From assembly GCA_031266815.1 (NCBI GenBank), contig JAISAG010000159.1:1-41942 (forward strand): DNA of 41,942 bases. Reading direction: 5' to 3'. Of the stretch, positions 67 to 26,014 are shown piece after piece. Numbering within the stretch: the first letter of the stretch is position 1; each line of letters starts with the position of its first letter. Origin of the DNA: Burkholderiaceae bacterium. Lineage in GTDB: Bacteria; Pseudomonadota; Gammaproteobacteria; Burkholderiales; Burkholderiaceae_D. The notes under the pieces are model-generated. The model worked only from the letters and a program-made list of their open reading frames with translations, was not told the DNA's origin and did no database searches. A program made the position numbers and the translations under genes.

Positions 67-1368
67 TTACAAAAGGGAAAGGTCGGCATCCTGCCCGATA
101 CAGGCAATGATGTGGTCGGCACGAACTGTCACTGGCTTGGTTGTCGCGGCATCGGGCGCCGTCTTCATGCGCGTGAACTCGATCTGGTTACCCGCCATGA
201 CCTGGGAAGGCGCCCACCGCTCAACCAGTTCAACGCCTTCTGCCAACGCCATTTCTACTTCGTGCGGGTTGGCAGGCATCTCCCGGCGGGTACGGCGGTA
301 CCATATCTGCACTTTCTCCGCCCCCTGACGGAAAGAGGTCATGGCGGCGTCAATGGCAACATTGCCACCGCCGATAACGATGACGTGCGGACCCACTTTC
401 ATGTCCTGCCCGTTACGAACTGTGGAGAGAAGATCCATCCCGCCGAGCACAAAGGGCAAATCATCGCCCGGAACGCCCAAACGACGGGAATATTGCAGAC
501 CAAACGCCAGAAACACGGCGTCAAACCCCTGATTGCGCAGCGCCACCACACTGCGGATGGCGTGATTGGTGTGAATGACAACCCCCAGCGCCTTAACTTT
601 GTCTATTTCATCGTTCAGGCAGGAGGCGGGGAGACGGTAATTCGGAATGCCGTAGCGCATAATGCCGCCCGGATGGGCGCGCTCATCAAAAATCTCGACA
701 TGGTGCCCCCGCTGCGCAAGGTAGTAAGCGGCGGTAACGCCAGCCGGACCTGCTCCCACCACCGCCACTTTTTTTCCCGTGGACGGTGCGACTTTCCTCG
801 CGGGATACACGGAGCGAAGACGGCTTGCCACGGATTTCATGGGGCGAATGAACACTGGCTGACAGGTGGTTTTCTGAACACAGGCGGATTCGCAGGGCGC
901 GGGACAAATCAGACCGCAGGAATCCGGAAGCGGCGTGTCCTTCAACAACACATCCAGAGAGTCGCTGTAGCGTCCATGCCCTACCAGTGCCATCATGCTG
1001 GGAATATCAATGTGCGCGGGACATGCCGATTGACAGGGGGCGATACGGGGTTCGAAACACACTCCAGCGGGACAGTGACTTCCGGTAATGTGGGATAACC
1101 ACTGGTCACGCGCCGCATCAAGCGATGCTTGCAAGGCGGCACCCAGTTCCCGCTCGCTGTCGGGCAGGGCCAGGGCAAGTTGCCCCAGCCGGGCAAACTG
1201 GCTTTCACTGGCTCGCCCCAGACTGATTTCCGTGATAATGCGCGTTACTGCCGCCAGCGCACGGCGTGCCGACGGATCGGCACAGGCCTGCGAGTGAATA
1301 CGCGCACGAAATGCGGTCAGTTGCTCAATGACGGGACAAAGCGGTTTTTCTGATTCGTTTTTTGCCAT
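67..1368 (-). CDS. GltD-like NAD(P)/FAD oxidoreductase subunit associated with formate dehydrogenase; ends at an in-frame TAA although similar coding sense continues to the window edge
   Basis: Fer4_20-like N-terminal cysteines (CQSACPAHIDIPS, CGLICPAPCESACVQ), FAD motif VAVVGAGPAGVTAAYYLAQRGHHVEIFDE, NAD(P) motif VIVIGGGNVAIDAA, and ACIGQ near the C-terminus. Divergent from the Fe-S/fdhF genes. Confidence 0.88.
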   Translation of the reverse strand: MAKNESEKPLCPVIEQLTAFRARIHSQACADPSARRALAAVTRIITEISLGRASESQFARLGQLALALPDSERELGAALQASLDAARDQWLSHITGSHCPAGVCFEPRIAPCQSACPAHIDIPSMMALVGHGRYSDSLDVLLKDTPLPDSCGLICPAPCESACVQKTTCQPVFIRPMKSVASRLRSVYPARKVAPSTGKKVAVVGAGPAGVTAAYYLAQRGHHVEIFDERAHPGGIMRYGIPNYRLPASCLNDEIDKVKALGVVIHTNHAIRSVVALRNQGFDAVFLAFGLQYSRRLGVPGDDLPFVLGGMDLLSTVRNGQDMKVGPHVIVIGGGNVAIDAAMTSFRQGAEKVQIWYRRTRREMPANPHEVEMALAEGVELVERWAPSQVMAGNQIEFTRMKTAPDAATTKPVTVRADHIIACIGQDADLSLL

Positions 1369-1453
1369 TGCGTCCTAGTCTCATCTGAATAATGATCGGC
1401 AGTGTGTGAAGACAAATCCTGCGTCCGTCAAGGGCGCACAGTCCCACATTCGT

Positions 1454-1481
1454 CTGTCACGGGACACCTTTTTCCTATTAT
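1454..1481 (+). promoter_or_regulatory. candidate sigma70 promoter for the formate dehydrogenase genes (CTGTCA-N16-TATTAT)
   Basis: CTGTCA at 1454-1459 and TATTAT at 1476-1481, upstream of the ATG at 1606. Confidence 0.35.
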
Positions 1482-1605
1482 GGCACATCACACGGCGGAG
1501 GGGACATCGCACGCGAATTCCGTCTTTCGGTTATCATAAGAAGGGGGGTCCGTGTGTCGTGACAACACATCATCCTGTCGCGGGCGCCCCTTCAGGGAGA
1601 AAGAT

Positions 1606-2082
1606 ATGAGATTCATTTCTGTCGAGCCGGACAAGTGCATCGGCTGCCGGACATGCGAAATTGCCTGCGTTCTGGCGCACCGCTCCGCAAACGGCGAAAC
1701 GTCGTTGCACACGGCGCATTTTTATCCGCGTTTGCGCATTGTGAAGAACAAAAATATCACCGCGCCCGTGCAATGCCGCCAGTGCGACAATGCCGCCTGC
1801 ATCGCCGCGTGTCCGGTTGATGCCATCGAATATGTGGATGACACGGTGCAAATTGACGCAAGCAAATGTATCGGGTGCCGCTCTTGCGTCGTGGCCTGCC
1901 CGCTTGGCGCCATTGAACTGGTCAACATGTCGGTCAGACAACAGAAACTGGGCCCCGTCTCCGTACGCGACTCTGTATCTGTTGCGCAAAAATGCGACCT
2001 GTGCATTCACTCCAAAACAGGGCCCGCCTGTGTGGCAGTCTGCCCCACAAAAGCACTGCGCCTGATCAATCGCGCCGCATAG
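1606..2082 (+). CDS. HycB/HydN-like ferredoxin subunit with four 4Fe-4S motifs, formate dehydrogenase electron-transfer subunit
   Basis: Starts MRFISVEPDKCIGCRTCEIAC with an upstream AGGGAG ribosome site. Four cysteine clusters: CIGCRTCEIAC, CRQCDNAACIAACP, CIGCRSCVVACP, CDLCIHSKTGPACVAVCP. Confidence 0.92.
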   Translation: MRFISVEPDKCIGCRTCEIACVLAHRSANGETSLHTAHFYPRLRIVKNKNITAPVQCRQCDNAACIAACPVDAIEYVDDTVQIDASKCIGCRSCVVACPLGAIELVNMSVRQQKLGPVSVRDSVSVAQKCDLCIHSKTGPACVAVCPTKALRLINRAA

Positions 2083-2108
2083 CCACGCCACCGAGCCGAG
2101 GAGAAGTC

Positions 2109-4280
2109 ATGGAAAAAGTCATCACAGTGTGCCCGTACTGTGCGTCGGGATGCAAGATCTACCTGTGTGTCAAAAACGGAAAAATCGTCAGCGCCGAACC
2201 GGCAAACGGACATACCAACCAGGGAGAATTGTGCCTGAAGGGTTACTACGGATGGGAATTTCTCAACGATACCCAATTGCTGACCCCTCGCTTGAAATTT
2301 CCCATGATACGCCGTCAACGCAGCGCACCGTTTGAAGCGGTATCTTGGGATGAAGCCATCGCATTCGCCAGTTCACGCCTGATGGAGATTAAAAACACGT
2401 ACGGTCCGGATGCCATCATGGTGACCGGTTCATCCCGCGGACCGGGAAATGAGGCCAACTACGTCGCCCAAAAATTCGCCCGAGCAGCGGTCGGAACCAA
2501 CAACATCGATTGCTGCGCCCGCGTCTGCCACGCCCCTTCCGTCTCCGGTCTGGAGGTCACACTGGGCAACGGCGCGATGAGTAATTCCATCGAAGAAATT
2601 GAGGAGACTCAGTGCATCCTGGTTTTTGGCTACAACGCCGCAGATTCGCATCCCATTGTGGCACGCCGCATTGTCAAGGCAAAAGAAAAGGGTGCCAAAA
2701 TCATTGTCTGTGACCCGCGACGCATAGAAACCGCTCGCATTGCCGATTTGTACCTGCCGCTGAAAAACGGCTCCAACATGGCGCTGGTAAACGCATTCGC
2801 CAATGTCCTGCTGGAAGAGGGCTTGTACAACAAGGACTACATCAATCAATACGCCGAAGGATTCGAGGAGTACAAGGCCGTCATCTCCCAGTACACGCCG
2901 GAATATGTGGCAGATATCACCGGACTGGATCCCGAATTGATTCGGGATGCCATGTACATGTACGCATCCGCCCCCTCCGCCACCATCTTGTGGGGAATGG
3001 GCGTCACACAATGGGAACAGGCTGTTGATGTTGTCAAGGGCTTGTCCAGCCTTGCCGTCATGACCGGAAATCTGGGGCGCCCCAATGTGGGGGTAGGCCC
3101 CGTCCGTGGGCAGAATAATGTGCAGGGTGCTTGTGACATGGGTGTTCTGCCCGGAACCCTGCCGGGCTACTATCGTGTCTGGAATCCGGAACACCGCGCA
3201 AAATTCGCCGCGGCGTGGGGATTGTCCTCATTCCCGGAAAAAGCGGGAATACATCTGACGGAAGTGCCGCACGCCGTTCAGGAGGGCAAGCTCAAGGCTT
3301 TCTACATCATGGGCGAAGACCCTCTGCAAACGGATCCGGATCTTGCCGCAACCCGTACGGCTTTCGACAAGCTGGATTTTGTCATCGTTCAGGACATTTT
3401 CATGACGAAAACCGCCATGGCGGCCGATGTCATCCTGCCTGCCACCTCGTGGGGCGAGCATGAGGGAGTCTATTCCGCCGCAGACAGGGGATTTCAGCGC
3501 TTTTACAAGGCGGTTGAACCGCAAGGAGATGTCAAAATAGACTGGGAAATACACTGTCTGATGTCAACCGCCATGGGCTACCCCATGTCGTACCGGAACA
3601 CGGAAGAAATCTGGAATGAAATACGCGAGCTGTGTCCGCTGTACTACGGGGCGACCTATGAAAAGATGGCGGGAATGGGCTATATCCCGTGGCCCTGCCT
3701 GACATTGGACAGTCCGGGCACCCCGTGGTTGTACGAGAACAACCAGTTCGACACCCCAACAGGCAAGGCTCTGCTTTTCGCCGCGGAATGGCGCCCACCG
3801 CACGAAAAGATTGATGCGGATTTCCCTCTCGTACTCAGCACTGTCCGCGAAGTCGGGCACTACTCCTGCCGTTCCATGACGGGAAACTGTTTCGCGCTGC
3901 AGGCATTGGCCGACGAACCGGGATATATGCAGATACACCCGGAAGACGCCTCCAGGCTGGGCATCCGGGATCAGAAGCTGGTTTGGGTCGCTTCGCGTCG
4001 AGGGAAAGTCCTTACCAGAGCCAATGTAACCGAACGGGCAAACGTAGGTGCGGTCTATATGACGTATCAATGGTGGATAGGCGCATGCAACGAGTTGACG
4101 GTGGAAGCGTTTGACCCCATATCCAAAACACCCGAATTCAAGTACAGCGCCGTACGCGTGGAAAAGATTGACGACCAGGCATGGGCGGAGCATTACCTTG
4201 TGCAGACTTATCAGGAAATGCGAAACAGCCTGCTTGATGCGCTCCCGCGTAAAACGAAGGTAACAGCGGCAGCGGCATAA
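2109..4280 (+). CDS. fdhF: formate dehydrogenase catalytic subunit, FdhF-type molybdopterin oxidoreductase with Cys at the Sec position
   Basis: N-terminal 4Fe-4S motif CPYCASGC...GELCLKG; active-site region NNIDCCARVCHAPSVSGLEVTLGNGAMSNSIEE; molybdopterin motifs; GAGGAG ribosome site upstream. Confidence 0.95.
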   Translation: MEKVITVCPYCASGCKIYLCVKNGKIVSAEPANGHTNQGELCLKGYYGWEFLNDTQLLTPRLKFPMIRRQRSAPFEAVSWDEAIAFASSRLMEIKNTYGPDAIMVTGSSRGPGNEANYVAQKFARAAVGTNNIDCCARVCHAPSVSGLEVTLGNGAMSNSIEEIEETQCILVFGYNAADSHPIVARRIVKAKEKGAKIIVCDPRRIETARIADLYLPLKNGSNMALVNAFANVLLEEGLYNKDYINQYAEGFEEYKAVISQYTPEYVADITGLDPELIRDAMYMYASAPSATILWGMGVTQWEQAVDVVKGLSSLAVMTGNLGRPNVGVGPVRGQNNVQGACDMGVLPGTLPGYYRVWNPEHRAKFAAAWGLSSFPEKAGIHLTEVPHAVQEGKLKAFYIMGEDPLQTDPDLAATRTAFDKLDFVIVQDIFMTKTAMAADVILPATSWGEHEGVYSAADRGFQRFYKAVEPQGDVKIDWEIHCLMSTAMGYPMSYRNTEEIWNEIRELCPLYYGATYEKMAGMGYIPWPCLTLDSPGTPWLYENNQFDTPTGKALLFAAEWRPPHEKIDADFPLVLSTVREVGHYSCRSMTGNCFALQALADEPGYMQIHPEDASRLGIRDQKLVWVASRRGKVLTRANVTERANVGAVYMTYQWWIGACNELTVEAFDPISKTPEFKYSAVRVEKIDDQAWAEHYLVQTYQEMRNSLLDALPRKTKVTAAAA

Positions 4281-4299
4281 GGTCGCGCGCCGGAACACC

Positions 4300-5379
4300 T
4301 CAATCCACAAGGGCGACGCTTTTGACCTGGGCAAGTATCGGCTTTCCCGCCACCAAGCCGAGCGCAATTGCCGATTTGCGCGTAATCCGGCTTAACAGGC
4401 GGGTACGGTTTGCCGTCAGTTCAACGGTAACCATGCCCGCGCCATCGTCGTGCATGTCCGCAACGACACACGCCAAAGTATTGCGCACGCTGGTGTGAGT
4501 CGCTCCTTCCGTTGCCAGGCTCACATCGCTCGCCAAAACGCGCAGACGAATCGGCTTGCCAACCTGGTCGGCGCCCCCGGGCAAAAAGAAGTGTCCTCCA
4601 TCAAAGCTCACCGTATTCAGGTGAAACGATGCATCGTGCTCTGTCACCCGACCGTGGACAACCCCCGCGGCATCCCTGCCGTGCGCCAGCGGCAAATCCA
4701 GCCGGGTCAGTAAAAAGCGTGTCTCTCCCACACCCCGCACGGTTCCCCTATCCAGCAATACCAGGGTATCCGCCAAACTGACCATCTCGTCCAGCGCGTG
4801 GCTGACGTACAGGATCGGAATGTGAAGCTGCTCACTCAAACCGGCAAGATAGGGCAAAATCTCCCGCTTGCGCTTCACATCCAGCGACGCTAACGGCTCA
4901 TCCATCAGCAAAATGCGGGGGCTGGTCGCCAGCGCGCGGGCAATCCCCACCCGCTGTTTTTCCCCGCCGGACAAGGTATCGGGAGAACGTTCTCCCAAGT
5001 GGGCAATCCCCAGCAAGTCCATGACATAGTCCAGCGAAATGCGCCTTTGCGCGGGCGGAATACGCTTGAGCCCAAAATGCAGATTTTTTGTGACGGACAG
5101 ATGGGAAAACAGCGTCGCTTCCTGGAACACAAAACCCAGCGCCCGTTTATGGGGCGGCACAAAAATACCCTGCGCATCGTCGTGCCACACCTCGTCGCCC
5201 ACTGCAATACGACTGTTTTGAGGACGCTCCAGTCCGGCAATGGCGCGCAAAAGAGTAGATTTGCCCGCACCGGAAGCACCAAAAATACCGGTGACCCCTT
5301 CGCCCGGCAAAGACAGGTCTGTGCGCAAGGTGTAATCAGAAAAAGTGACGTGGACGCGCGCCTGGATAGATGAGCTCAT
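4300..5379 (-). CDS. modC: molybdate ABC transporter ATP-binding protein
   Basis: Walker [21 protein letters not shown]; signature [16 protein letters not shown]; Walker [14 protein letters not shown]-terminal TOBE-like region; next to modB and modA. Confidence 0.96.
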
Positions 5380-6047
5380 GCCCGTCTTTTTCCTGTCGGA
5401 TTCAGCAGATACAAGGCCAACAGCACGACGAAACTGAACAAAAGCATCCCCGCGGATAACCAGTGTGCCTGCACATACTCGATGGACTCTACATGATCAA
5501 AAATCTGGATGGACAGTACACGGGTCTTGTCAGGAATGTTCCCCCCCACCATCAGGACTACGCCGAATTCTCCCACTGTATGCGCAAACCCGATAACGGC
5601 TGCCGTCAAGTAACCCGGCTTTGCCAAAGGCAATATCACACTGAAGAAGGTATCCCACGGCGAAGCCCGCAAGGTAGCTGCCGCTTCAAGCGGCGCTTTC
5701 CCGATGGCTTCAAACGCGTTTTGCAGCGGCTGCACGACAAACGGCAGGGAATAAAACGAGGACGCCACAACCAGCCCGCCGAAACTGAAAGGAAGTGTTC
5801 CTATACCCAACCAGCCCGCCAGCTTGCCTGCCGGACCGTGCGGCCCCATGAATATCAGCAGGTAAAACCCCAGCACAGTGGGCGGCAGCACCAGTGGAAG
5901 CGCGACAACCGCGCTCACCGGCGCTTTCCACCACGCTGTAGTCTGCGACAGATACCATGCCAGCGGCGTGCAGGCGACCAGCAGAATCAGTGTGGTAACA
6001 AACGCCAGCTGGACTGTCAGCCATACCGGCGCAAGATCAGGCACCAC
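5376..6047 (-). CDS. modB: molybdate ABC transporter permease
   Basis: Hydrophobic permease with [15 protein letters not shown] and [25 protein letters not shown] motifs; ATGA overlap with modC. Confidence 0.96.
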
Positions 6048-6053
6048 AGGAAC

Positions 6054-6881
<828 letters not shown>

Positions 6882-6911
6882 CTAAATTCCGGGGGACAGG
6901 AGGCGAACCGT

Positions 6912-7673
6912 ATGAGACAAACAAACGCGCTTGCCAATGCCTTGGGCTATGACGTCGCCGACAAGCGGATTGATGTGCTGCGCCTTATCGGGAAAACCGG
7001 CTCCATCTCGCAGGCGGCGAGAGAGGCAGGTATCAGTTACAAGGCCGCATGGCAGGCTATTGATACGCTGTCCAATCTGGCAGGAGTCTCCCTGGTGGAA
7101 AAAACAGTTGGCGGTGTCGGCGGCGGCGGCGCACAGTTGACCCCCGCAGGAGAGCATTTACTGGAAATGGCGCACATTCTGGCGTGCAAACGTCACGAGT
7201 TGTTCAGCAGTATCACCAAATCGGCACATAAGCCCGACCCCGGGTTGTCCCGCCTGTTCGTTCGCACCAGTATGCGCAATCACTTGCCATGCCACATTCA
7301 CGCGCTGTCCCCAACCGCCTCCATCGTGCGGGTTGCCCTGGTTCTGCGTGATGGAACGCAGGTTGTCGCCCGCATCACGCATACCAGCGTTGAATTGCTT
7401 GCGCTGAAAGTCGGGACACCGGTATTGGCGCTCTGCAAGGCAACTGCCGTCAGTATCCGTCATAAACCGGAGCCGTCCGCAGGCACATCCCGCAATCTGC
7501 TGCGGGGAGTGGTGCGTCGCGCGTCGCGCGGCGATACGGAAGATGAAATTGCTGTTGAACTGGACGCAGGCGTCCAGCTTGTAGGCTTCTCTCCGGCAAG
7601 CCCTTCCTTATCCGAGGGAGAGACTGCCTATGCGCACGTTGAAGAATCGGCTGTCGTCATCGCCCTCTTATGA
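6912..7673 (+). CDS. modE: ModE-family molybdate-responsive transcriptional regulator
   Basis: Winged HTH RIDVLRLIGKTGSISQAAREAGISYKAAWQAIDTLSNLAGVSLVEKTVGGVGGGGAQLT plus paired mop/TOBE-like domains; GGAGGCG ribosome site upstream of the ATG at 6912. Confidence 0.95.
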   Translation: MRQTNALANALGYDVADKRIDVLRLIGKTGSISQAAREAGISYKAAWQAIDTLSNLAGVSLVEKTVGGVGGGGAQLTPAGEHLLEMAHILACKRHELFSSITKSAHKPDPGLSRLFVRTSMRNHLPCHIHALSPTASIVRVALVLRDGTQVVARITHTSVELLALKVGTPVLALCKATAVSIRHKPEPSAGTSRNLLRGVVRRASRGDTEDEIAVELDAGVQLVGFSPASPSLSEGETAYAHVEESAVVIALL

Positions 7674-8491
7674 AAACACCCGCTGCAACCGCCATAACGG
7701 CAAACTGCGTGGTTACGCAGTGGCGGAACAACCGTGCGGGCATCGAAATGGCGCAGATCGCGGAGGAAGTCCCCATCGCACTGGAGTACAACGGTATCGC
7801 GCATGTGGTCATGCTGGCAACACCAGCGGACCTGCTTGATTTCGCGTGGGGATTTTCCATGACGGAAGGAATCGTCCGCACCCCCGCTGATATTTACGAT
7901 TGTGAAATTCTGACCGGAGAAGCCGGAATCCGCGTCACCCTGCAGATCGCCAGCGAGGCGTTCATGAACATGAAAGAAAAGCGGCGACGTCTGGCAGGCA
8001 GAACAGGATGCGGACTGTGCGGAATGGAGTCGTTGCAGCAGTTGCACACACCGGCACCGGTCAACAGCACGGCGCGCGTGACATGGGCGCAATTGCAAAA
8101 CGCCATGCAGGATATGGAAACCAAACAGGTTCTGCGGGCACAAACCGGCGCGACACACGCGGCGGCGTGGATGAAAAGAGATGGAACGGTCAGTACCGTG
8201 CGCGAAGATGTGGGACGCCATAACGCGCTAGACAAACTGATCGGCGCACTCTGGCAGCAGCAGGAAGAGTTGTCTTCGGGAAGTATTCTCGTTAGCAGTC
8301 GCGCCAGCTATGAAATGGTGCAGAAGTGTGCGGCTGCCGGCGCAGGAGTACTGGCAGCCGTTTCGTCACCCACAGCCATGGCAATCCGTATGGCTGCCGC
8401 TGCCAACATAACCCTGATCGGCTTTGTACGCCGGAATGGGTGCGCCGTTTATACACACACCAACCGCTTCGACGGCAATCCGCCAGACTGA
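7670..8491 (+). CDS. fdhD: formate dehydrogenase accessory sulfurtransferase FdhD
   Basis: RTGCGLCGMESL cysteine motif, REDVGRHNALDKLIG, ILVSSRASYEMVQKCAAAG; ATGA overlap with modE. Confidence 0.96.
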   Translation: MKTPAATAITANCVVTQWRNNRAGIEMAQIAEEVPIALEYNGIAHVVMLATPADLLDFAWGFSMTEGIVRTPADIYDCEILTGEAGIRVTLQIASEAFMNMKEKRRRLAGRTGCGLCGMESLQQLHTPAPVNSTARVTWAQLQNAMQDMETKQVLRAQTGATHAAAWMKRDGTVSTVREDVGRHNALDKLIGALWQQQEELSSGSILVSSRASYEMVQKCAAAGAGVLAAVSSPTAMAIRMAAAANITLIGFVRRNGCAVYTHTNRFDGNPPD

Positions 8492-8530
8492 TTGGCACGC
8501 CGCCCCGCGAATCAAAAAGTCGTGTCACTC

Positions 8531-8812
8531 TCACGATGAGGCTACATTTTTCAGTTGCTGCTGCCACGGCTCTGTCACATCGCGTATGAGACGGTCATTT
8601 GCCATAATCTGCTTTAACAAGGATATTTTCTTGCGCAGCGCGTCCCCGGATAACGGGACACGCGGCAGACGCTTTGCCTCACGGCTCACATGGACGCATT
8701 CCCCATCCAGTTGTTCGAAATACCCCCACCGGCTGTCGTTCGCCGCCTGCGCCATTTGCGACGTAAGACAGGCAAGCCGCTCGTATACATTGATGATTTC
8801 GCATGGTTTCAT
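8531..8812 (-). CDS. small helical protein resembling flagellar chaperone FliT
   Basis: MKPCEIINVYERLACLTSQMAQAANDSRWGYFEQLDGECVHV...ISLLKQIMANDRLIRDVTEPWQQQL has the FliT-type YERL...W..L...D..IR....PW pattern. Confidence 0.55.
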   Translation of the reverse strand: MKPCEIINVYERLACLTSQMAQAANDSRWGYFEQLDGECVHVSREAKRLPRVPLSGDALRKKISLLKQIMANDRLIRDVTEPWQQQLKNVASS

Positions 8813-8945
8813 AGGTCTGCTGAAAAGAAGTGGACTCGACACTCCCTTAACGGCATATCGGGTAATCAACTTGATAGCGGCGAAAAAAACAAAGTGACGC
8901 CCCTTTCCCCGCCATTCCCTCTTATCGGGAATACCTCGCAGCCTG

Positions 8946-9791
8946 TCAGGTCGCATGAAAAACGGCCTGAATCCGCTCCAGTGCTTCCAGTGCTCCCATC
9001 TTCAGACTGATTCCCCGGGTTCGCGCATCGTCCATTTGGGGATCTGTCGGATTAATGCGGATCAGGGGCGCGTCCAGTGACTCGCTGAAACGCCTGACGG
9101 AGGGAACAGCGACCCCCGCGCCCAATTCCACAACGAGCGGCTTGCGAACCCGGTCGCGCCACGCCACCCAGTGCCGACATTGGTCGTCCGTCCGGTCGGG
9201 GACCCATCCCCAATCGCCGAACATCAGAATATTCGGGCGCGCCAGCGCACCGCAGGCGATACAAGTCGGCAAATCGCCAAGCCAGCGGCAAGCATCGTCA
9301 TCAATGGAAACCGTCAGCGCGTCCGCCTCCCAGATTCGCGCTTCGCACGGAGGGAAGCAGGCGCACTGCAAAAAATGGATGGAACCGTGACACTCTATGA
9401 TACGTCTTTCTGAAAAACCGGCCGCCTGAAATTGTCCGTCCACATTGCTTGTAAAGACAAAATCCCCGTGCGGCAAGGTTGCGGACAAGGCGCGCAGAAT
9501 ATGAAACCCCGCGTGGGGTTGTGTCCTCCGATACAGACGCAGGCGATGCCCGTAAAATCCCCATGCCCGCGCAGGATCATCGGAAAAGGCAGAGGGATTG
9601 GCAATCTGGGTAAACGCGACGCCCGCCTTTGCCAGTGGCGGATAAGCTTTCCAAAATCCCTCGTTTCCCCGGAAATCGGGCAACCCGGAATCAACACCCA
9701 TCCCCGCGCCTGCGGCAATAACCAGCGCATCCGCAGATTTCAGCCATTGCACAGCCGTCTCTATGTCGGACACCGACGCCATATCACGCAC
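8946..9791 (-). CDS. Sir2-family NAD-dependent protein deacylase (atypical sirtuin)
   Basis: GAGMGVDSGLPDFRG, TSNVDGQFQAAGF, ECHGSIHFLQC, zinc-ligand-like CACFPPC...CIACG, RPNILMFGD. Confidence 0.9.
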   Translation of the reverse strand: MRDMASVSDIETAVQWLKSADALVIAAGAGMGVDSGLPDFRGNEGFWKAYPPLAKAGVAFTQIANPSAFSDDPARAWGFYGHRLRLYRRTQPHAGFHILRALSATLPHGDFVFTSNVDGQFQAAGFSERRIIECHGSIHFLQCACFPPCEARIWEADALTVSIDDDACRWLGDLPTCIACGALARPNILMFGDWGWVPDRTDDQCRHWVAWRDRVRKPLVVELGAGVAVPSVRRFSESLDAPLIRINPTDPQMDDARTRGISLKMGALEALERIQAVFHAT

Positions 9792-9810
9792 GCGACAGGC
9801 AATGACCGCG

Positions 9811-10092
9811 CTATTTCAACTGCGCCGCCAAACCGGAAAGCAGTGTCGCTTCCTGTTCTGTCAATGTGGGCATGTACGGCAACACGGCGACCACTTTTTT
9901 CCGGATGGGCAAAAACTGTTCCAGTTGCTTTTTATCCAGCTTGTTGCCTGAATACGCCGCATCCACAACCTTGTAATAGTCGTACAATACCGCCGCTTCC
10001 GACAATTTGACCGTTGACCGGCCCGTCATTTCCACATCGAGCGACTTGCGGGTATCTGCCTGACCTTCCCCTTTTTGGCTGTCGTTTGACAT
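9811..10092 (-). CDS. hypothetical 93-aa protein
   Basis: Complete ORF in the gap between ahpF and the sirtuin, same strand, ribosome site AAGGAG upstream; no family recognised. Confidence 0.6.
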   Translation of the reverse strand: MSNDSQKGEGQADTRKSLDVEMTGRSTVKLSEAAVLYDYYKVVDAAYSGNKLDKKQLEQFLPIRKKVVAVLPYMPTLTEQEATLLSGLAAQLK

Positions 10093-10138
10093 CTCTTTGC
10101 TCCTTTCTTGCTGATAACACCAATTCCCGGACTTGCGC

Positions 10139-11689
10139 CTAGGAACGGATTAGATAATCGAAAGCACTCAATGCAGCAGTCGCGCCACTGCCCATTGCCG
10201 TAACCAGTTGCTTGTAGGGAACCGTTGTTGCATCGCCTGCGGCAAAAACACCGGAGAGAGAGGTACGCCCGTGGTCGTCCACTTCAATTTCTCCGCGCAA
10301 GGTCATTGCAAGAGTCCCCCTCAACCATTCCGTCGCTGGCTGGAGGCCAATCTGGACGAAAATCCCGTCCACATCCAGTAATTGCCTGTCGGCATGCACC
10401 TGATCCCGATAGACCAGGGTATTGACGCTATTGTCATCGCCCAGTATTTCCAGCACGCTGGCGCGCAAAACCACGCGAATGCCGGGGTGCGCCGCCACTT
10501 TTTCCTGCAGGATGGCGTCGGCCTCCATCTTGTCGCCGCGCACCAGCAACGTGACATGCTCGGTGATCCCCGCCAAATCCAGCGCGGCTTCAGCAGCGCC
10601 ATTGCCTCCCCCGACAACAGCGACCCGCTTTCCCTTGTAGAGCGGGCCGTCGCAATGCGCGCAAAAGGCAACCCCCCGCCCGATATAGATACTCTCCCCG
10701 CGCACATTTAAGCGGCTCCAGTTGGCCCCCGGTGACAGGATGACCGTACGGCTTTTCAATATCGCACCGCTCTGCGTCTGCAATTCAAACAGACCATCCT
10801 CCCGCTCTTCCAGTGAAACGATTTCCTGTATCGTCATGACATCCACCCCGCTCGCCCTGACATTCTCTTCCAGCGTCGCGGCAAGTTCAATACCTTGCAC
10901 TTCCTTTAAAATAATCATATTTTCGATCACGGTGGTACTCAAAACCTGTCCGCCGACATTTTTTGTCACCAATCCGGTTCGGATTCCCTTTCGGGACGCA
11001 TAGATCGCCGCAGTGGAACCCGCGGCACCACCCCCGACAACGAGAACATCGAACGGCGGCTTCTCCGACATTTCCGCCGCTTCTCTCTCGACACTTTCGG
11101 TGTCAACCAGTGCCAGTATCTCCCGAATGCCGACCCGCCCCGTTACCAACTGCTCTCCGTTTAAAAAAACGGTCGGAACGCTCATCACCTTGTTTTCCAC
11201 TTCTTTCAAAAAAAGCGTTCCGTCAACCATGGTGTGGGAAATCCGCGGATTCAACGTCGCCATCAAATTGAGCGACTGTACGACCTCGGGACAGTTCGTA
11301 CAGGAAAGCGACACGTACGACTCAAAATGCAGCGGCCCCTGCAATGCCTCCACCTGCGCCCGCAACTCTGAATCAATCCGGGGAGGGTGTCCCCCTGCAT
11401 GCAGCAGCGCCAGCGCAAATGAGGTGAATTCGTGCCCCATCGGCAATCCGGCAAAAGTAATGCCCATATCCTGACCCGGTGTTGTCAGCGAAAAAGAGGG
11501 TCTGCGCCCTTCTCCGTCGGCAGGCTTTGTCACACTGACCAGCGGCGACAACGCCTCTATCTCGCCGAGCATCTCCTCCATTTCTCTGGACTGCGAAACG
11601 CTGTCGTCGGTCAGCACAGTAATCTCAACCGGACGCTGCAACTTTCTGAGTAAGGCTCCAACCTGATCAAGAATCTCTTTTTCTAACAT
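10139..11689 (-). CDS. ahpF: alkyl hydroperoxide reductase subunit F
   Basis: N-terminal SLSCTNCPEVVQSLNLMA; FAD motif VVGGGAAGSTAAIYASRKG; FCAHCDGPLYKGKRVAVVGGGNGAAEAALDLA; C-terminal FAAGDATTVPYKQLVTAMGSGATAALSAFDYL. Confidence 0.97.
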   Translation of the reverse strand: MLEKEILDQVGALLRKLQRPVEITVLTDDSVSQSREMEEMLGEIEALSPLVSVTKPADGEGRRPSFSLTTPGQDMGITFAGLPMGHEFTSFALALLHAGGHPPRIDSELRAQVEALQGPLHFESYVSLSCTNCPEVVQSLNLMATLNPRISHTMVDGTLFLKEVENKVMSVPTVFLNGEQLVTGRVGIREILALVDTESVEREAAEMSEKPPFDVLVVGGGAAGSTAAIYASRKGIRTGLVTKNVGGQVLSTTVIENMIILKEVQGIELAATLEENVRASGVDVMTIQEIVSLEEREDGLFELQTQSGAILKSRTVILSPGANWSRLNVRGESIYIGRGVAFCAHCDGPLYKGKRVAVVGGGNGAAEAALDLAGITEHVTLLVRGDKMEADAILQEKVAAHPGIRVVLRASVLEILGDDNSVNTLVYRDQVHADRQLLDVDGIFVQIGLQPATEWLRGTLAMTLRGEIEVDDHGRTSLSGVFAAGDATTVPYKQLVTAMGSGATAALSAFDYLIRS

Positions 11690-11728
11690 AGCAAATCCTG
11701 TCCTTCTGTATCCAATGTCGTCCCTTCA

Positions 11729-11750
11729 TCTGCTTTCCGGGGAAAGCAGA
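11729..11750. repeat. near-perfect inverted repeat in the ahpF leader (TCTGCTTTCC-gg-GGAAAGCAGA)
   Basis: Direct reading; 10-nt arms, about 40 nt upstream of the ahpF start. Confidence 0.7.
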
Positions 11751-11843
11751 CTCTCGTGGACAATAATGCCCCTTCCGCCTGCCGATGGGTCCCGGCACCA
11801 CAACGACCATCCGCGCGCCCTGTCATCTGTTCAGAGAGCGCGC

Positions 11844-11852
11844 ATTATAGCA
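11844..11852 (-). promoter_or_regulatory. extended -10 element TGCTATAAT, candidate ahpF promoter
   Basis: Minus strand reads gatgcTATAATgcgcgc with TGn directly upstream. Confidence 0.45.
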
Positions 11853-11975
11853 TCATAGCATTACCCCGCACCCTTCTCGCCCCGAAAGGCGACGAAGGAA
11901 CGTGCAGAGTAAAACGGGAACGTCGTCGGGTCGCCGCTGCTTAAACTGGCAAGACCCGGCAGACGAGGCAACGCG

Positions 11976-12542
11976 TCAAATTTTACCAACCAGATCAAGC
12001 GATGGCGCCAGCGTTTTCGCCCCCGGTTGCCAGGAAGCGGGACACACTTCTCCCTTGTGCGTCGCCACATACTGGGCAGCTTGAACCTTGCGCAACAGCT
12101 CCGTTGCGGATCGCCCGATGCTGTTGTCGTGCACCTCACACAGCTTGATCAGTCCTTCCGGATCAATGATGAAAGTGCCGCGTAACGCGAGGCCTTCGGA
12201 CTCTATCATGACGCCAAAATTGCGAGCCAGCGCGCCCGTGGGATCACCGATCATGGGATACCGGATTTTCTTGATGGTGTCAGAGGCATCGTGCCACGCC
12301 TTGTGGGTAAAGTGGGTGTCCGTTGATACAGAGTAAATCTCTACACCGATGTTCTTGAACGAGTCGTAATGGTCTGCCAGATCGCCCAACTCGGTGGGAC
12401 AAACGAAGGTGAAATCGGCGGGATAAAAGAAGATGACGGACCACTTTCCCTTCAGGTCATCTTCGGAAACGCGGACAACTTTCCCATTGTGAAAGGCACT
12501 GTTTCTAAATGGTTTTATTTTTGTGTTGATCAAGGAAGTCAT
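11976..12542 (-). CDS. ahpC: alkyl hydroperoxide reductase subunit C (peroxiredoxin)
   Basis: FFYPADFTFVCPTELGDLADHYD peroxidatic Cys motif; resolving-Cys region EVCPASWQPG; start MTSLINTKIKPF. Confidence 0.97.
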   Translation of the reverse strand: MTSLINTKIKPFRNSAFHNGKVVRVSEDDLKGKWSVIFFYPADFTFVCPTELGDLADHYDSFKNIGVEIYSVSTDTHFTHKAWHDASDTIKKIRYPMIGDPTGALARNFGVMIESEGLALRGTFIIDPEGLIKLCEVHDNSIGRSATELLRKVQAAQYVATHKGEVCPASWQPGAKTLAPSLDLVGKI

Positions 12543-12577
12543 GTTTTCTCCTGTGGTAATGTAAAGCAATGTTGCCA

Positions 12578-12605
12578 ACGCACGCGAAATATTTTCCGCG
12601 TGCGT
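12578..12605. repeat. inverted repeat in the ahpC leader (ACGCACGCG-N10-CGCGTGCGT)
   Basis: Perfect 9-nt arms, 36 nt upstream of the ahpC start codon. Confidence 0.7.
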
Positions 12606-21099: not shown

Positions 21100-21852
21100 C
21101 TACCCCGGAAACGCCTTTAAAAAGGCTTCATCTGTCAAAGACAGCCTGCCCGCCGCGCGCGCCTGCTCAATCAAGTCGGGACGACGCTTCTGCGTGAGCA
21201 ACAACGCCTGCTCTCTGCGCCACGTCGCTATCTCGGCGTGATTCCCTCCCAACAGGACGGGCGGCACGACCAAACCCGCATATTCCGGCGGGCGGGTATA
21301 GTGCGGACAATCCAGTATGCCCGCAACAAAGCTGTCCTGCTCAGCGGACAAGTCGTCATGCAATACCTGCGGCAATTGCCTGATTAACGCGTCCATCAAG
21401 GCCATGGCCGGAATTTCTCCGCCGGACAACACAAAGTCGCCCATACTGATTTCCTCATCAACATGCAGGTCAATCACGCGTTGGTCAATCCCCTCATACC
21501 TGCCGCACAGCAGGATCAGCCCCGGCTTTTCCTTCAGCGCCATAACGCGGTCATGCGTCAAGCGATCTCCTTGCGGCGACAGACAAATGACGTGCGCACA
21601 CCGGACTCCGGCAACACACTGCCGCTGCCTCGCCGCTGCAATGGCTTTTTCCAGCGGCTCAATCTGCATCACCATACCCGGGCCACCGCCATAAGGGCGA
21701 TCATCTACGGTACGGTAACGGTCAGTCGCGAAATCGCGCGGGTTCCACAAAGTCAGGGCGCACCGCCCCTCTTCAAACGCCCGACGGGTGACCCCGGATT
21801 GGGTCAGCGAAGAAAACATCTCGGGGAAAAGCGTCACGACATCGAAATACAT
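21100..21852 (-). CDS. trmD: tRNA (guanine-N1)-methyltransferase
   Basis: [66 protein letters not shown]. Confidence 0.98.
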
Positions 21853-21886: not shown

Positions 21887-22441
21887 TCAGTAGTCCGCTT
21901 CCCAATCCACGACTATTCTTTTTTTCGGCAAATCAACCTGCTCAATGAAGGGCGCCACAAAGGGAATCAGGCATTCCCCGGCAGCATCCGGCAGACGAAC
22001 GCGCAAAATGGGATGGGCGGGATTATCCATCAGGGCGTGAACCGCACCGAGCAACACACCACGGCGGTTTATCACCTGCAAACCGATCAGGTCAACCCAA
22101 TAGAATTCGTTTTCGTCCAAAACGGGAAAGGATGCGCGCGACACGTGAACCAGTGCTCCTCTCAGGGCCTCTGCCTCCTCGCGGGAGCGAATCTCCGCCA
22201 TGTGGGCCAATAACTCGCCACCATGCGGGCGCACATCCAGCACACGGACGGAACGCAAACCCTCCCTGTCAAGCCACCACACTCTGGCAACAAACAGGCT
22301 GGACGCTTCATCAGAATACGGTCTGATGCGCACCCACCCCTCTACGCCATACGACCCCGTGACATGCGCCACCGCCACAAGGTCTGCCGGAACCGGCGTT
22401 ATCGAACCCTCGCGCGCCGGGTTTTTGACCGCGCCGGACAC
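21887..22441 (-). CDS. rimM: ribosome maturation factor RimM
   Basis: [51 protein letters not shown]; operon position. Confidence 0.97.
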
Positions 22442-22446
22442 ATTGC

Positions 22447-22695
22447 TCAGACGGACTGGCGGGATTGACGGACCAACCGTGCCACAGTAGGCGACAACTT
22501 CGCCCCGACGCTCTGCCAGTGGGCGAGACGATCCGCCGCGATGTGCAACCCTTTCTCGTTTTCAGAGGCAAACGGATTATACATACCAATGCGCTCAATA
22601 AAACGACCATCACGACGGTTGCGGGAATCAGCTGCCACAATCCGGTAGAATGGGCGTTTCTTCGCGCCACCACGCGCCAAACGAATAACAACCAT
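22447..22695 (-). CDS. rpsP: 30S ribosomal protein S16
   Basis: [41 protein letters not shown]. Confidence 0.98.
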
Positions 22696-22755: not shown

Positions 22756-23544
22756 TCAAACCCCCGTTTGTCCCGGAAGAAAACCGGCTCCCCCGGAAAT
22801 ACGCGACCGACCTTCCTCCTTGGTGACAATCAATTTTTGGTACAGTCCCCCGAAAAAGATTTCTTTCTCCAGAACGGCATGGGGAACTGCCGCAGGCAGA
22901 TAACCAGCAAGATCGTTATGCCACATATCGTCCGCAAACGGCTCGAACAGCGTGAACACCGCCTTTTGCCATAACCGGAACGGGTGCAAGGCATGCGGGC
23001 AATGGAAGTCCAGCAGGACCAGACGCCCGCCGGGTTTGAGCACCCGCAACGCCTCCGACAACATGACGCGTCTTTGCTCCGCAGGCAATTCGTGCGCCAG
23101 AAAAAACACCAGAACAAAATCATACCTGTCCGCAGGAAAAGGGAGTGCACAGGCGTCACACAGATGAAACCGGATGCGTTTGTCCGGCAAAGACAATTTT
23201 CTTTTTGCATTCTCCAGCTGCAAGGGCAACACATCCACCAGATCGAACCGCCCCTGTTCACCCAACTGCCGCTGTATACGCGGAACCAGTTGCCCGTACG
23301 CGTTGGCAACCTGCAATACGGCACCCTCAATTGGATTGGACAAGCTGGACAACGCCGCTGCGACCAGACGACGATAATTGCCCAGCAAAACCAGATTGAT
23401 CAGCGGCGCCCTGTCCCAAAACCAGACCGCCAACGGATGTCCATAAGCCCACCAGTACGTTTGCCGCAGATAATCCGGTGCCTCCGGCGACACTGCCCGG
23501 GGCACCTCGTCCTCGCACATCCGTTCTTCTTCCGATGCGTTCAT
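22756..23544 (-). CDS. rquA: class I SAM-dependent enzyme, probable rhodoquinone biosynthesis protein RquA
   Basis: PDYLRQTYWWAYGHPLAVWFWDRAPLINLVLLGNYRRL...VLQVANAYGQLVPRIQRQL...DLVDVLPLQLENAKRKL...FVLVFFLAHELPAEQRR...EKEIFFGGLYQKLIV matches the remembered RquA pattern (YWWAY-HP, QVA-x2-YG, FFLxHExP, FFGGLYQK). Confidence 0.8.
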   Translation of the reverse strand: MNASEEERMCEDEVPRAVSPEAPDYLRQTYWWAYGHPLAVWFWDRAPLINLVLLGNYRRLVAAALSSLSNPIEGAVLQVANAYGQLVPRIQRQLGEQGRFDLVDVLPLQLENAKRKLSLPDKRIRFHLCDACALPFPADRYDFVLVFFLAHELPAEQRRVMLSEALRVLKPGGRLVLLDFHCPHALHPFRLWQKAVFTLFEPFADDMWHNDLAGYLPAAVPHAVLEKEIFFGGLYQKLIVTKEEGRSRISGGAGFLPGQTGV

Positions 23545-23676
23545 ATCGTACCCATTCTACCCTTTCGGGTTCCGGGAAGACACACTTGCCTTGTCTGCGC
23601 ACCACTATTTCCATCACGCAACAGAAAAATGGTAATATGCCTGCGACAGCGCCACGAGCGGGAGAAAGACCCTGTG

Positions 23677-24945
23677 ATGTTTTCGATGCCCATCCCTACC
23701 CAGCGGTATTTTGCCGTTATCAATGCTGGCTCGTCCAGCTACAAATTTTCCCTGTTTGCCGAAATGGATGATGCCCGTCTGGAGCGCCATACCTTTGGCG
23801 AAATAGAGGGGGTTGGTCGGGACGACCCCTTCTTCCTTGCAAGAGACAGTGACCGGCGCATCGTCAGCCAGCATAGCTGGGGAACCCGGATGACCAGCCA
23901 GGCCCTTCTGGAATTTTTGGTTGACTGGATAGAAGTCCACCTTTCCCCCAACCGTTTGAACGCAGTGGGACACAGGGTGGTACACGGCGGGCCCGACTTT
24001 GTCGAGCCTGTCCTGTTGACACCGGATACGCTGGAGAGACTGCGTCGGCTTACCCCGCTTACCCCCTTGCACCACCCGAGAGTACTGGGAGTCATGGATG
24101 TGCTGACCGCGCGCTATCCCGACCTGTGCCAAATCGCCTGCTTTGACACCTCTTTTCACCAGACAAACCCCTATCTATCCCGCCTGTACGGATTGCCCGG
24201 GCACCTGACCGAAAAAGGGCTTGTCCGCTATGGCTTCCACGGCCTTTCCTACGAATACGTCATCGGAGAACTGCAACAGATAGACCCTGTTGCGGCACGG
24301 GGACGCACCATTATTGCCCATTTGGGAAGCGGTGCCAGCCTGTGCGGACTGATTGACGGGAAAAGCATTGCCAGCACCATGGGATTTTCCACGCTGGACG
24401 GGCTGGTGATGGGAACGCGAACAGGGGCGCTGGATCCGGGCGTTATCCTGTATCTGCTCCGCTATGAAAACATGAGTGTTGAAGAGTTGGAAACCATGCT
24501 TTACAAGGAATCGGGGCTTTTGGGGGTTTCCGGCATCAGCGCGGACATGCGTGATCTGTTGACGACGGGAAACCCCGCCTCAAGAACCGCGCTGGATCTG
24601 TTTGTTTACCGCGTTATCCGTGAAACAGGTTCGCTCATGGCCGCTATCGGCGGCGTTGACAACCTCGTCTTCACTGCCGGTATTGGCGAACGTTCCCCCG
24701 AAATCCGCGCAGCCATCTGCAAAGGGCTGGACTGGCTCGGCATCCGGATAGACGAAGACGCCAACCAGCACGGACACCTCTCCATCCACGCGCCAGACAG
24801 TAAAATACCCGTCTGGATCATCCCTACATTTGAAGAGCTCATGATTGCCCGCCACGGCGCACGCCTTTCCGCCGCGTTTGAGGCAGCGAAGCGGGCGCAG
24901 GCGACCGAACCACCTCCTGCAGAGACCATCGCGGGCGAACAGTAA
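23677..24945 (+). CDS. ackA: acetate kinase
   Basis: [81 protein letters not shown]. Confidence 0.95.
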
Positions 24946-25927
24946 ACCGATAGTCCCGCGTTATGGACTCTGGAACGTGCAGCAGGCGCATGGCGCCCGC
25001 CAGCGCAATCATGGCGCCGTTATCCGTACAAAACGCCAGGTCGGGATAATACACGCGGGCATCCCTTTCCTCTGCCATTTTGTCCAGACCAGCACGCAAC
25101 TGCCGGTTTGCCCCCACACCACCGGCAACCACCAGGCGCCGCAACGCCGTTTCATCCAGCGCGCGGGCGCACTTCGCCACCAGCACATCCACCGCCGCGT
25201 CTACAAACCCGCGTGCTACATCGGCGCGCCGTGCGTCATCCATCGGCAAGTCTTTCCGGGTCATCGTCAATAGTGCTGTTTTCAACCCGGAAAAACTGAA
25301 ATTCAAATCACCGGAATGCAGCAGCGGACGAGGCAAGCGACACACCCCCGTACGCCCGGATTCTGCCAGTTCGGACAAGGCTGCCCCGCCCGGATAGGGC
25401 AGTCCAAGCAATTTGGCTGATTTGTCAAACGCCTCACCAGCCGCATCATCCAGCGTTTCACCAAGCAAAATGTACTGCGCAACGCCATCCACTTGCATCA
25501 ACTGGGTATGTCCACCGGAAACAAGGAGAGCGACAAAGGGAAAATCAGGCGGAACAGGAGAAAGCAGCGGAGACAGCAAATGTCCTTCCAGATGATGAAT
25601 ACCGACTGCCGGTTTACCCAGCGCCAGCGCCAGACTGCATCCGAACGAAGCCCCGACCAGCAGGGCGCCCGCCAGCCCGGGACCCTGCGTATAAGCGACC
25701 ATGTCTATGTCTGTGCGCGACAGGTTTGCCTGCTCAAGCGCCATCTCCAGCAAGGAGGCTATCCGGCGAATGTGGTCTCGCGAAGCCAGTTCGGGCACCA
25801 CTCCGCCGTATGCGGCGTGCAAGGCAATCTGCGAATGCAATGTGTGGGCAAGCAACCCCTTGCCTGTATCGTACAAACCAATACCTGTCTCATCACAGGA
25901 TGTTTCAATGCCCAGCACGACCATCAT
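24839..25927 (-). CDS. tsaD: tRNA N6-adenosine threonylcarbamoyltransferase
   Basis: [42 protein letters not shown]-type metal motif ([14 protein letters not shown]), [22 protein letters not shown]. Confidence 0.97.
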
Positions 25928-25984
25928 ACCCTCTCGTTGCGCCCGAAAATAACGGTGCCTTCCCTCCGTACCGTACCAACCGGA

Positions 25985-26014
25985 TTGACACCTTTTTTTT
26001 TCCATGATTATAAT
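25985..26014 (+). promoter_or_regulatory. consensus sigma70 promoter of tRNA-Lys (TTGACA-N18-TATAAT)
   Basis: TTGACA at 25985-25990, TATAAT at 26009-26014; tRNA begins at 26024. Confidence 0.85.

Follow-up and report, generated by a model that had tools for sequence, protein, structure and literature searches.

RquA in the genus Oxalobacter: a genus-wide rhodoquinone gene in genomes where no complex II was found

RquA converts ubiquinone to rhodoquinone with SAM and Mn2+, and rhodoquinone has, to our knowledge, been discussed almost entirely as a carrier for fumarate reduction. Every rquA-bearing eukaryote in a 2018 survey had complex II (PMC5953543). Among betaproteobacteria (G045, G117, Ramlibacter, Rubrivivax, and Rhodoferax), RquAs of the same family that are ~45-50% identical to the one described here are encoded beside a second SdhA/FrdA, at a distance of no more than 3 kb, whereas the Oxalobacter genomes have no SdhA/FrdA to adjoin and their rquA is located instead by ackA and rpsP or by the ATP synthase operon. 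Here, an rquA gene is described from a 41,942-nucleotide contig (JAISAG010000159.1; hereafter the window, meaning this whole stretch) of an uncultured Oxalobacter draft genome (G000, assembly GCA_031266815.1; 1.87 Mb, 175 contigs, 88% complete). Like Rhodospirillum rubrum RquA (Rru_A3227) and other members of the NF038261 family, its product passes the curated cut-off and has a disrupted SAM motif I, both pocket aspartates, and a class I methyltransferase fold, but the window genome has no complex II to pair with the product. What makes the locus interesting is that a rhodoquinone gene kept across the genus lacks the partner usually found with it; the RquA itself is ordinary.

Identity and setting of the rquA gene

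The open reading frame starts with ATG, and its product contains all four motifs in which the initial annotation of this DNA had seen an RquA-like pattern: YWWAYGHP (residues 30-37), LQVANAYGQ (77-85), FFLAHELP (147-154), and FFGGLYQKLI (230-239). In a profile search the protein matched NF038261, the NCBIfam equivalog for the rhodoquinone biosynthesis methyltransferase RquA, with 247.5 bits (cut-off 175; E = 1.1e-73), residues 23-241 aligning to positions 2-217 of the 218-position model. Weak matches to UbiE-family and generic methyltransferase models were also obtained, and could be read to mean that the protein is a methyltransferase of the UbiE/COQ5 or another generic type rather than RquA. 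This alternative is so improbable that it was rejected: the best UbiE model reached 50.8 bits against a cut-off of 216, the genome encodes a separate UbiE (TIGR01934, 240 bits against 158), and in a tree of 60 RquA rows rooted with 2 UbiE rows as the outgroup the window protein fell within RquA, the two families being split by a branch length of 5 with support of 100/100. UbiE/COQ5 proteins are like the window RquA in fold, in the aligned aspartates, and in an identity of 39% over 108 residues, but they differ from it in clade, in the intact GxGxG-type motif of UbiE, and in the reaction catalyzed. The identity that had been proposed thus withstood the profile and phylogenetic comparisons suggested with it, placement with UbiE not being seen, and, as judged from its sequence, the window gene is RquA, an ordinary member of a known family.

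The replacement of the acidic-GxGxG motif, also pointed out in the initial annotation, is borne out by alignment with the UbiE of the same genome, in which LQVANAYGQL is matched by LDIASGTGDL. Across 59 RquA rows L77, Q78, Y83, and G84 are invariant, and the Cys81 of most sampled members of the NF038261 family is Asn in the window RquA and in four sister sequences. Two aspartates, D104 and D130, were mapped onto D118 and D143 of R. rubrum RquA by means of the UbiE alignment and spacing (Table 1). Both aspartates have SAM-contacting counterparts in related enzymes, that of D118 contacting the ribose in Coq5, and replacing D118 and D143 together abolished rhodoquinone synthesis by R. rubrum RquA in vivo (PMC9814641). 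Both are among the 51 of 54 near-invariant positions that the window RquA keeps; of the three altered positions two are conservative changes, and Cys81 to Asn is the notable one. An AlphaFold2 model of the protein (mean pLDDT 85.9) adopts the fold of class I methyltransferases, and its top PDB matches include SAM-bound yeast Coq5. A sequence search of the PDB found no solved RquA structure and matched only distant generic methyltransferases.

As had been described, rquA is divergent from ackA, the likely start of which is 132 bp from that of rquA. A simple scan detected no sigma-70-like site in the region between the two genes. On the other side of rquA, a strong -10/-35-like site (TTGATA-16-TATAAT, positions 22759-22732) suggests that rpsP may have its own promoter, and a weak terminator-like stem is located between rquA and rpsP; an operon of these two genes is possible.

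Table 1. Positions of rquA, its neighbors, and selected RquA residues in the window
Feature	Position	Strand	Evidence
rquA, RquA, 262 aa	22756..23544	-	NF038261 score; tree; conserved positions
Degenerate SAM motif I, residues 77-85 (LQVANAYGQ)	23290..23316	-	UbiE alignment; 59 RquA rows
D104 codon, counterpart of R. rubrum D118	23233..23235	-	Invariant in 59 rows; aligned to D of UbiE 'LTDI'
D130 codon, counterpart of R. rubrum D143	23155..23157	-	95% conserved; aligned to D of UbiE 'CDAEKLPF'
rquA-ackA intergenic region, 132 bp	23545..23676	.	ORF coordinates
ackA, acetate/propionate family kinase (start codon inferred)	23677..24945	+	TIGR00016, 325 bits against 293.4
tsaD, next gene beyond ackA	24839..26005	-	TIGR03723, 419 bits against 296
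rpsP (ribosomal protein S16), 60 bp downstream of rquA	22447..22695	-	TIGR00002, 93.2 bits against 45.3
rimM	21887..22441	-	TIGR02273, 146.9 bits against 66.2
trmD	21100..21852	-	NF000648, 303 bits against 220

Distribution, inheritance, and divergence in Oxalobacter

Oxalobacter are oxalate-eating gut anaerobes, and the named members of the genus include O. formigenes HC-1 and O. paraformigenes HOxBLS. A total of 12 of 13 Oxalobacter genomes encode RquA, the one without a match being 62% complete; rquA is a trait of the genus. Most of these genomes have the gene order tsaD, ackA (divergent), rquA, rpsP, rimM, and trmD, as do HC-1 and HOxBLS, the RquAs of which are only 50-51% identical to the long-branch window copy. 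The tsaD-ackA-rquA arrangement is common to Oxalobacter and its sister genus. In three Oxalobacter genomes from the rumen or sheep omasum (L033, L038, and L040), rquA is found directly before the ATP synthase operon (at ~8000-10300 in each), where AtpI, AtpB, and the ATP synthase subunits were recognized by eye from the sequence. The RquAs of Oxalobacter and the sister genus form a single clade (support 98/100), which, together with the synteny of tsaD, ackA, and rquA, indicates that the gene was inherited from a common ancestor of the two genera and kept despite relocation. Lateral transfer, through which the initial annotation had described rquA as spreading, is thus not needed to explain its distribution within the genus. 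Public MAG records labeled as Alistipes senegalensis (L028, JAMPER010000001.1) and Bordetella parapertussis (L057) also carry rquA; the RquA of the former groups with Oxalobacter, with 97% identity to that of an O. formigenes MAG, and the record looks mislabeled.

The window copy has diverged fast. Its branch in the tree is 0.82 long, compared to ~0.1-0.2 in its relatives, and its identity to other Oxalobacter RquAs is ~17-19 points below that of its sisters, while AckA, TrmD, and TsaD are not accelerated. To O. formigenes, for example, the window RquA is 50% identical and that of a sister genome (L026) 69%, compared to 64 and 66% for AckA and 70 and 75% for TsaD. The acceleration appears confined to RquA of the window species, where the gene looks intact but fast-evolving; the long branch could reflect relaxed constraint in this one species. 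A stronger interpretation is that RquA, at least in the window species, is vestigial or on its way to losing function, with rhodoquinone made in traces or not at all and without an essential role. The fast evolution relative to the neighboring genes and the failure to find a known partner enzyme for rhodoquinone speak for such a loss. Against these stand the retention of an intact rquA in 12 of 13 genomes and through relocation, and the conservation in the window copy of nearly all near-invariant positions detailed above, which make loss of function improbable.

Quinone supply and missing partner enzymes

UbiT, UbiU, and UbiV act in an O2-independent route to ubiquinone, and all three are encoded in a cluster in the window genome (UbiU, 544.5 bits against a cut-off of 440; UbiV, 363.4 against 275; UbiT, 113.2 against 46.9). 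UbiA was above its cut-off in 13 of 13 Oxalobacter genomes. With the Ubi proteins searched for (UbiA, UbiE, UbiT, UbiU, and UbiV) all present, ubiquinone should be available as the substrate for rhodoquinone, and the absence of ubiquinone biosynthesis, which had been put forward as evidence that would speak against RquA, was not seen. O. formigenes appears to depend solely on the O2-independent ubiquinone pathway (PMC6747719). Rhodoquinone in Oxalobacter was not named in the literature searched, in which the two are mentioned together only through the title of a reference.

The initial annotation had connected rquA with fumarate respiration through a complex II working in reverse and had proposed a search for fumarate reductase-like sdh or frd genes. 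No SdhA/FrdA was above the cut-off in any of the 13 Oxalobacter genomes, six of which are 99-100% complete, or in either of two sister-genus genomes. Each matching Oxalobacter genome yielded a single protein of ~391 bits on the SdhA/FrdA model, short of the cut-off of 567. In the window genome this homolog (PF00890/TIGR01812) is the L-aspartate oxidase NadB, with 889.5 bits on the NadB model, and the matches in other Oxalobacter genomes, alike in length and score, were taken as NadB; the two sister-genus genomes likewise had a NadB-like protein only. A wider search for a second strong PF00890 member found none in the Oxalobacter genomes. As a positive control, the same search recovered SdhA with ~800 bits in 12 of 12 comparison genomes, comprising nine rquA-bearing genomes from other genera, so that all nine rquA-bearing genomes outside the Oxalobacter clade have SdhA, and three rquA-negative relatives.

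That rhodoquinol nonetheless feeds a fumarate reductase, complex II being run backwards in fumarate respiration, has in its favor that this is the established use of rhodoquinone elsewhere (PMC5953543) and that SdhA/FrdA is encoded within a few kb of rquA at 21 of the 44 non-Oxalobacter loci with enough flanking sequence. At the 10 loci of the Oxalobacter clade the corresponding count is zero, the only homolog in these genomes is a soluble enzyme, and the search that returned no SdhA/FrdA above the cut-off in Oxalobacter and its sister genus succeeded in every comparison genome. Fumarate respiration was rejected on this evidence and is very unlikely to be how these cells use rhodoquinone. Other common outlets are also missing. 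Neither a heme-copper oxidase nor cytochrome bd was detected in the Oxalobacter genomes searched, and an aerobic use of rhodoquinone through these oxidase families was rejected. Similarly, the molybdopterin reductase family (PF00384) is represented in Oxalobacter by formate dehydrogenase FdhA and NuoG only, and respiration of nitrate, DMSO, TMAO, or thiosulfate by molybdopterin enzymes was rejected.

Possible uses of rhodoquinone and other features of the genome

With no complex II and no oxidase of the families searched, a rhodoquinone pool in Oxalobacter cannot feed fumarate reduction as it does in Rhodospirillum or anaerobic mitochondria. Encoded in these genomes are complex I and a dihydroorotate dehydrogenase (PyrD). 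Complex I is represented by NuoD in 12 of 13 Oxalobacter genomes, with NuoD, NuoF, NuoG, and NuoH confirmed, and a full-length DHO_dh match was obtained in all Oxalobacter genomes except the least complete one. In the window genome and in O. formigenes HC-1 the latter protein is a class 2, quinone-dependent PyrD (TIGR01036, 415-434 bits against 200). Since PyrD needs oxidized quinone and there is no known quinol oxidase, its electrons need an outlet, for which a reversed complex I is one option.

We propose that a functional RquA would exchange a methoxy group of ubiquinone for an amino group from SAM, so that a small, low-potential rhodoquinone pool would arise from ubiquinone supplied by the O2-independent pathway. 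This pool would accept electrons from quinone-dependent biosynthetic dehydrogenases, class 2 PyrD foremost, and the electrons would be returned to NAD+ by complex I working in reverse, driven by the proton-motive force that oxalate/formate exchange generates. Standard potentials are about +110 mV for ubiquinone and about -320 mV for NAD. The value for rhodoquinone is -63 mV (PMC11707229). By our own arithmetic from these standard potentials, with 4 H+ moved for every 2 electrons, the proton-motive force needed to drive complex I backwards would fall from ~215 mV with ubiquinol to ~130 mV with rhodoquinol, and a cell exchanging oxalate for formate might well reach the lower value but not the higher. 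We give a probability of about 0.4 to the reading that rhodoquinone serves as the acceptor for PyrD, with the electrons passed back to NAD+ by reverse complex I, close variants included.

The chief competitor is an anaerobic chain running forward, in which NADH would be oxidized by a proton-pumping complex I and rhodoquinone would pass the electrons to an acceptor reductase outside the families searched. Candidates would include nitrite or sulfite reduction by NrfHA/NrfBCD, a bc1 complex with cytochrome c peroxidase, MsrPQ, or an uncharacterized enzyme. Complex I is found throughout the genus, in line with such a chain, and the position of rquA next to the ATP synthase operon in the three rumen genomes fits a link to energy conservation. 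The genus lacks, however, oxidases of the families searched, complex II-type flavoproteins, and molybdopterin reductases other than FdhA and NuoG, and with them the commonest outlets for a forward chain. We regard it as a serious possibility but place it behind the return of PyrD electrons through reverse complex I. The more sweeping form of the latter, namely that across the genus, lacking fumarate reductase and terminal oxidase, rhodoquinone is a redox buffer from which PyrD electrons reach NAD+ via reverse complex I, is offered tentatively and is unlikely to hold in full. Should it be true, rhodoquinone would have a use other than fumarate reduction in a whole genus of obligate anaerobes, one with a culturable gut representative of medical interest because of kidney stones. 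An apparently exclusive O2-independent supply of ubiquinone, a genus-wide rquA, and the lack of complex II together make Oxalobacter a clean setting for a role of a low-potential quinone without fumarate reduction.

Several other genes of the window genome concern peroxide and formate metabolism. A peroxide defense pair, ahpF and ahpC, lies side by side in the window (10139-12578), in a genus without a detected terminal oxidase. At positions 67-8491 the window encodes a formate dehydrogenase cluster comprising a GltD-like NAD(P)-binding oxidoreductase (67-1368), FdhA (1992-4280; 901 bits against 666), modABC, a ModE-like regulator, and FdhD; the corresponding cluster of O. formigenes HC-1 additionally includes a HydN-like Fe-S protein (L165). 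Another contig of the draft (C36) carries a hydrogenase-4/formate-hydrogenlyase operon (L149, 3786-13607) that is cut by the contig end and encodes HyfB (839.7 bits against 667), a HyfH-like Fe-S protein, and large and small NiFe subunits. The operon occurs in this genome alone among the 13 of Oxalobacter, and its tetranucleotide correlation with the window is 0.88; it may stem from contamination of the draft. This operon and the formate dehydrogenase of the window could together convert formate to H2.
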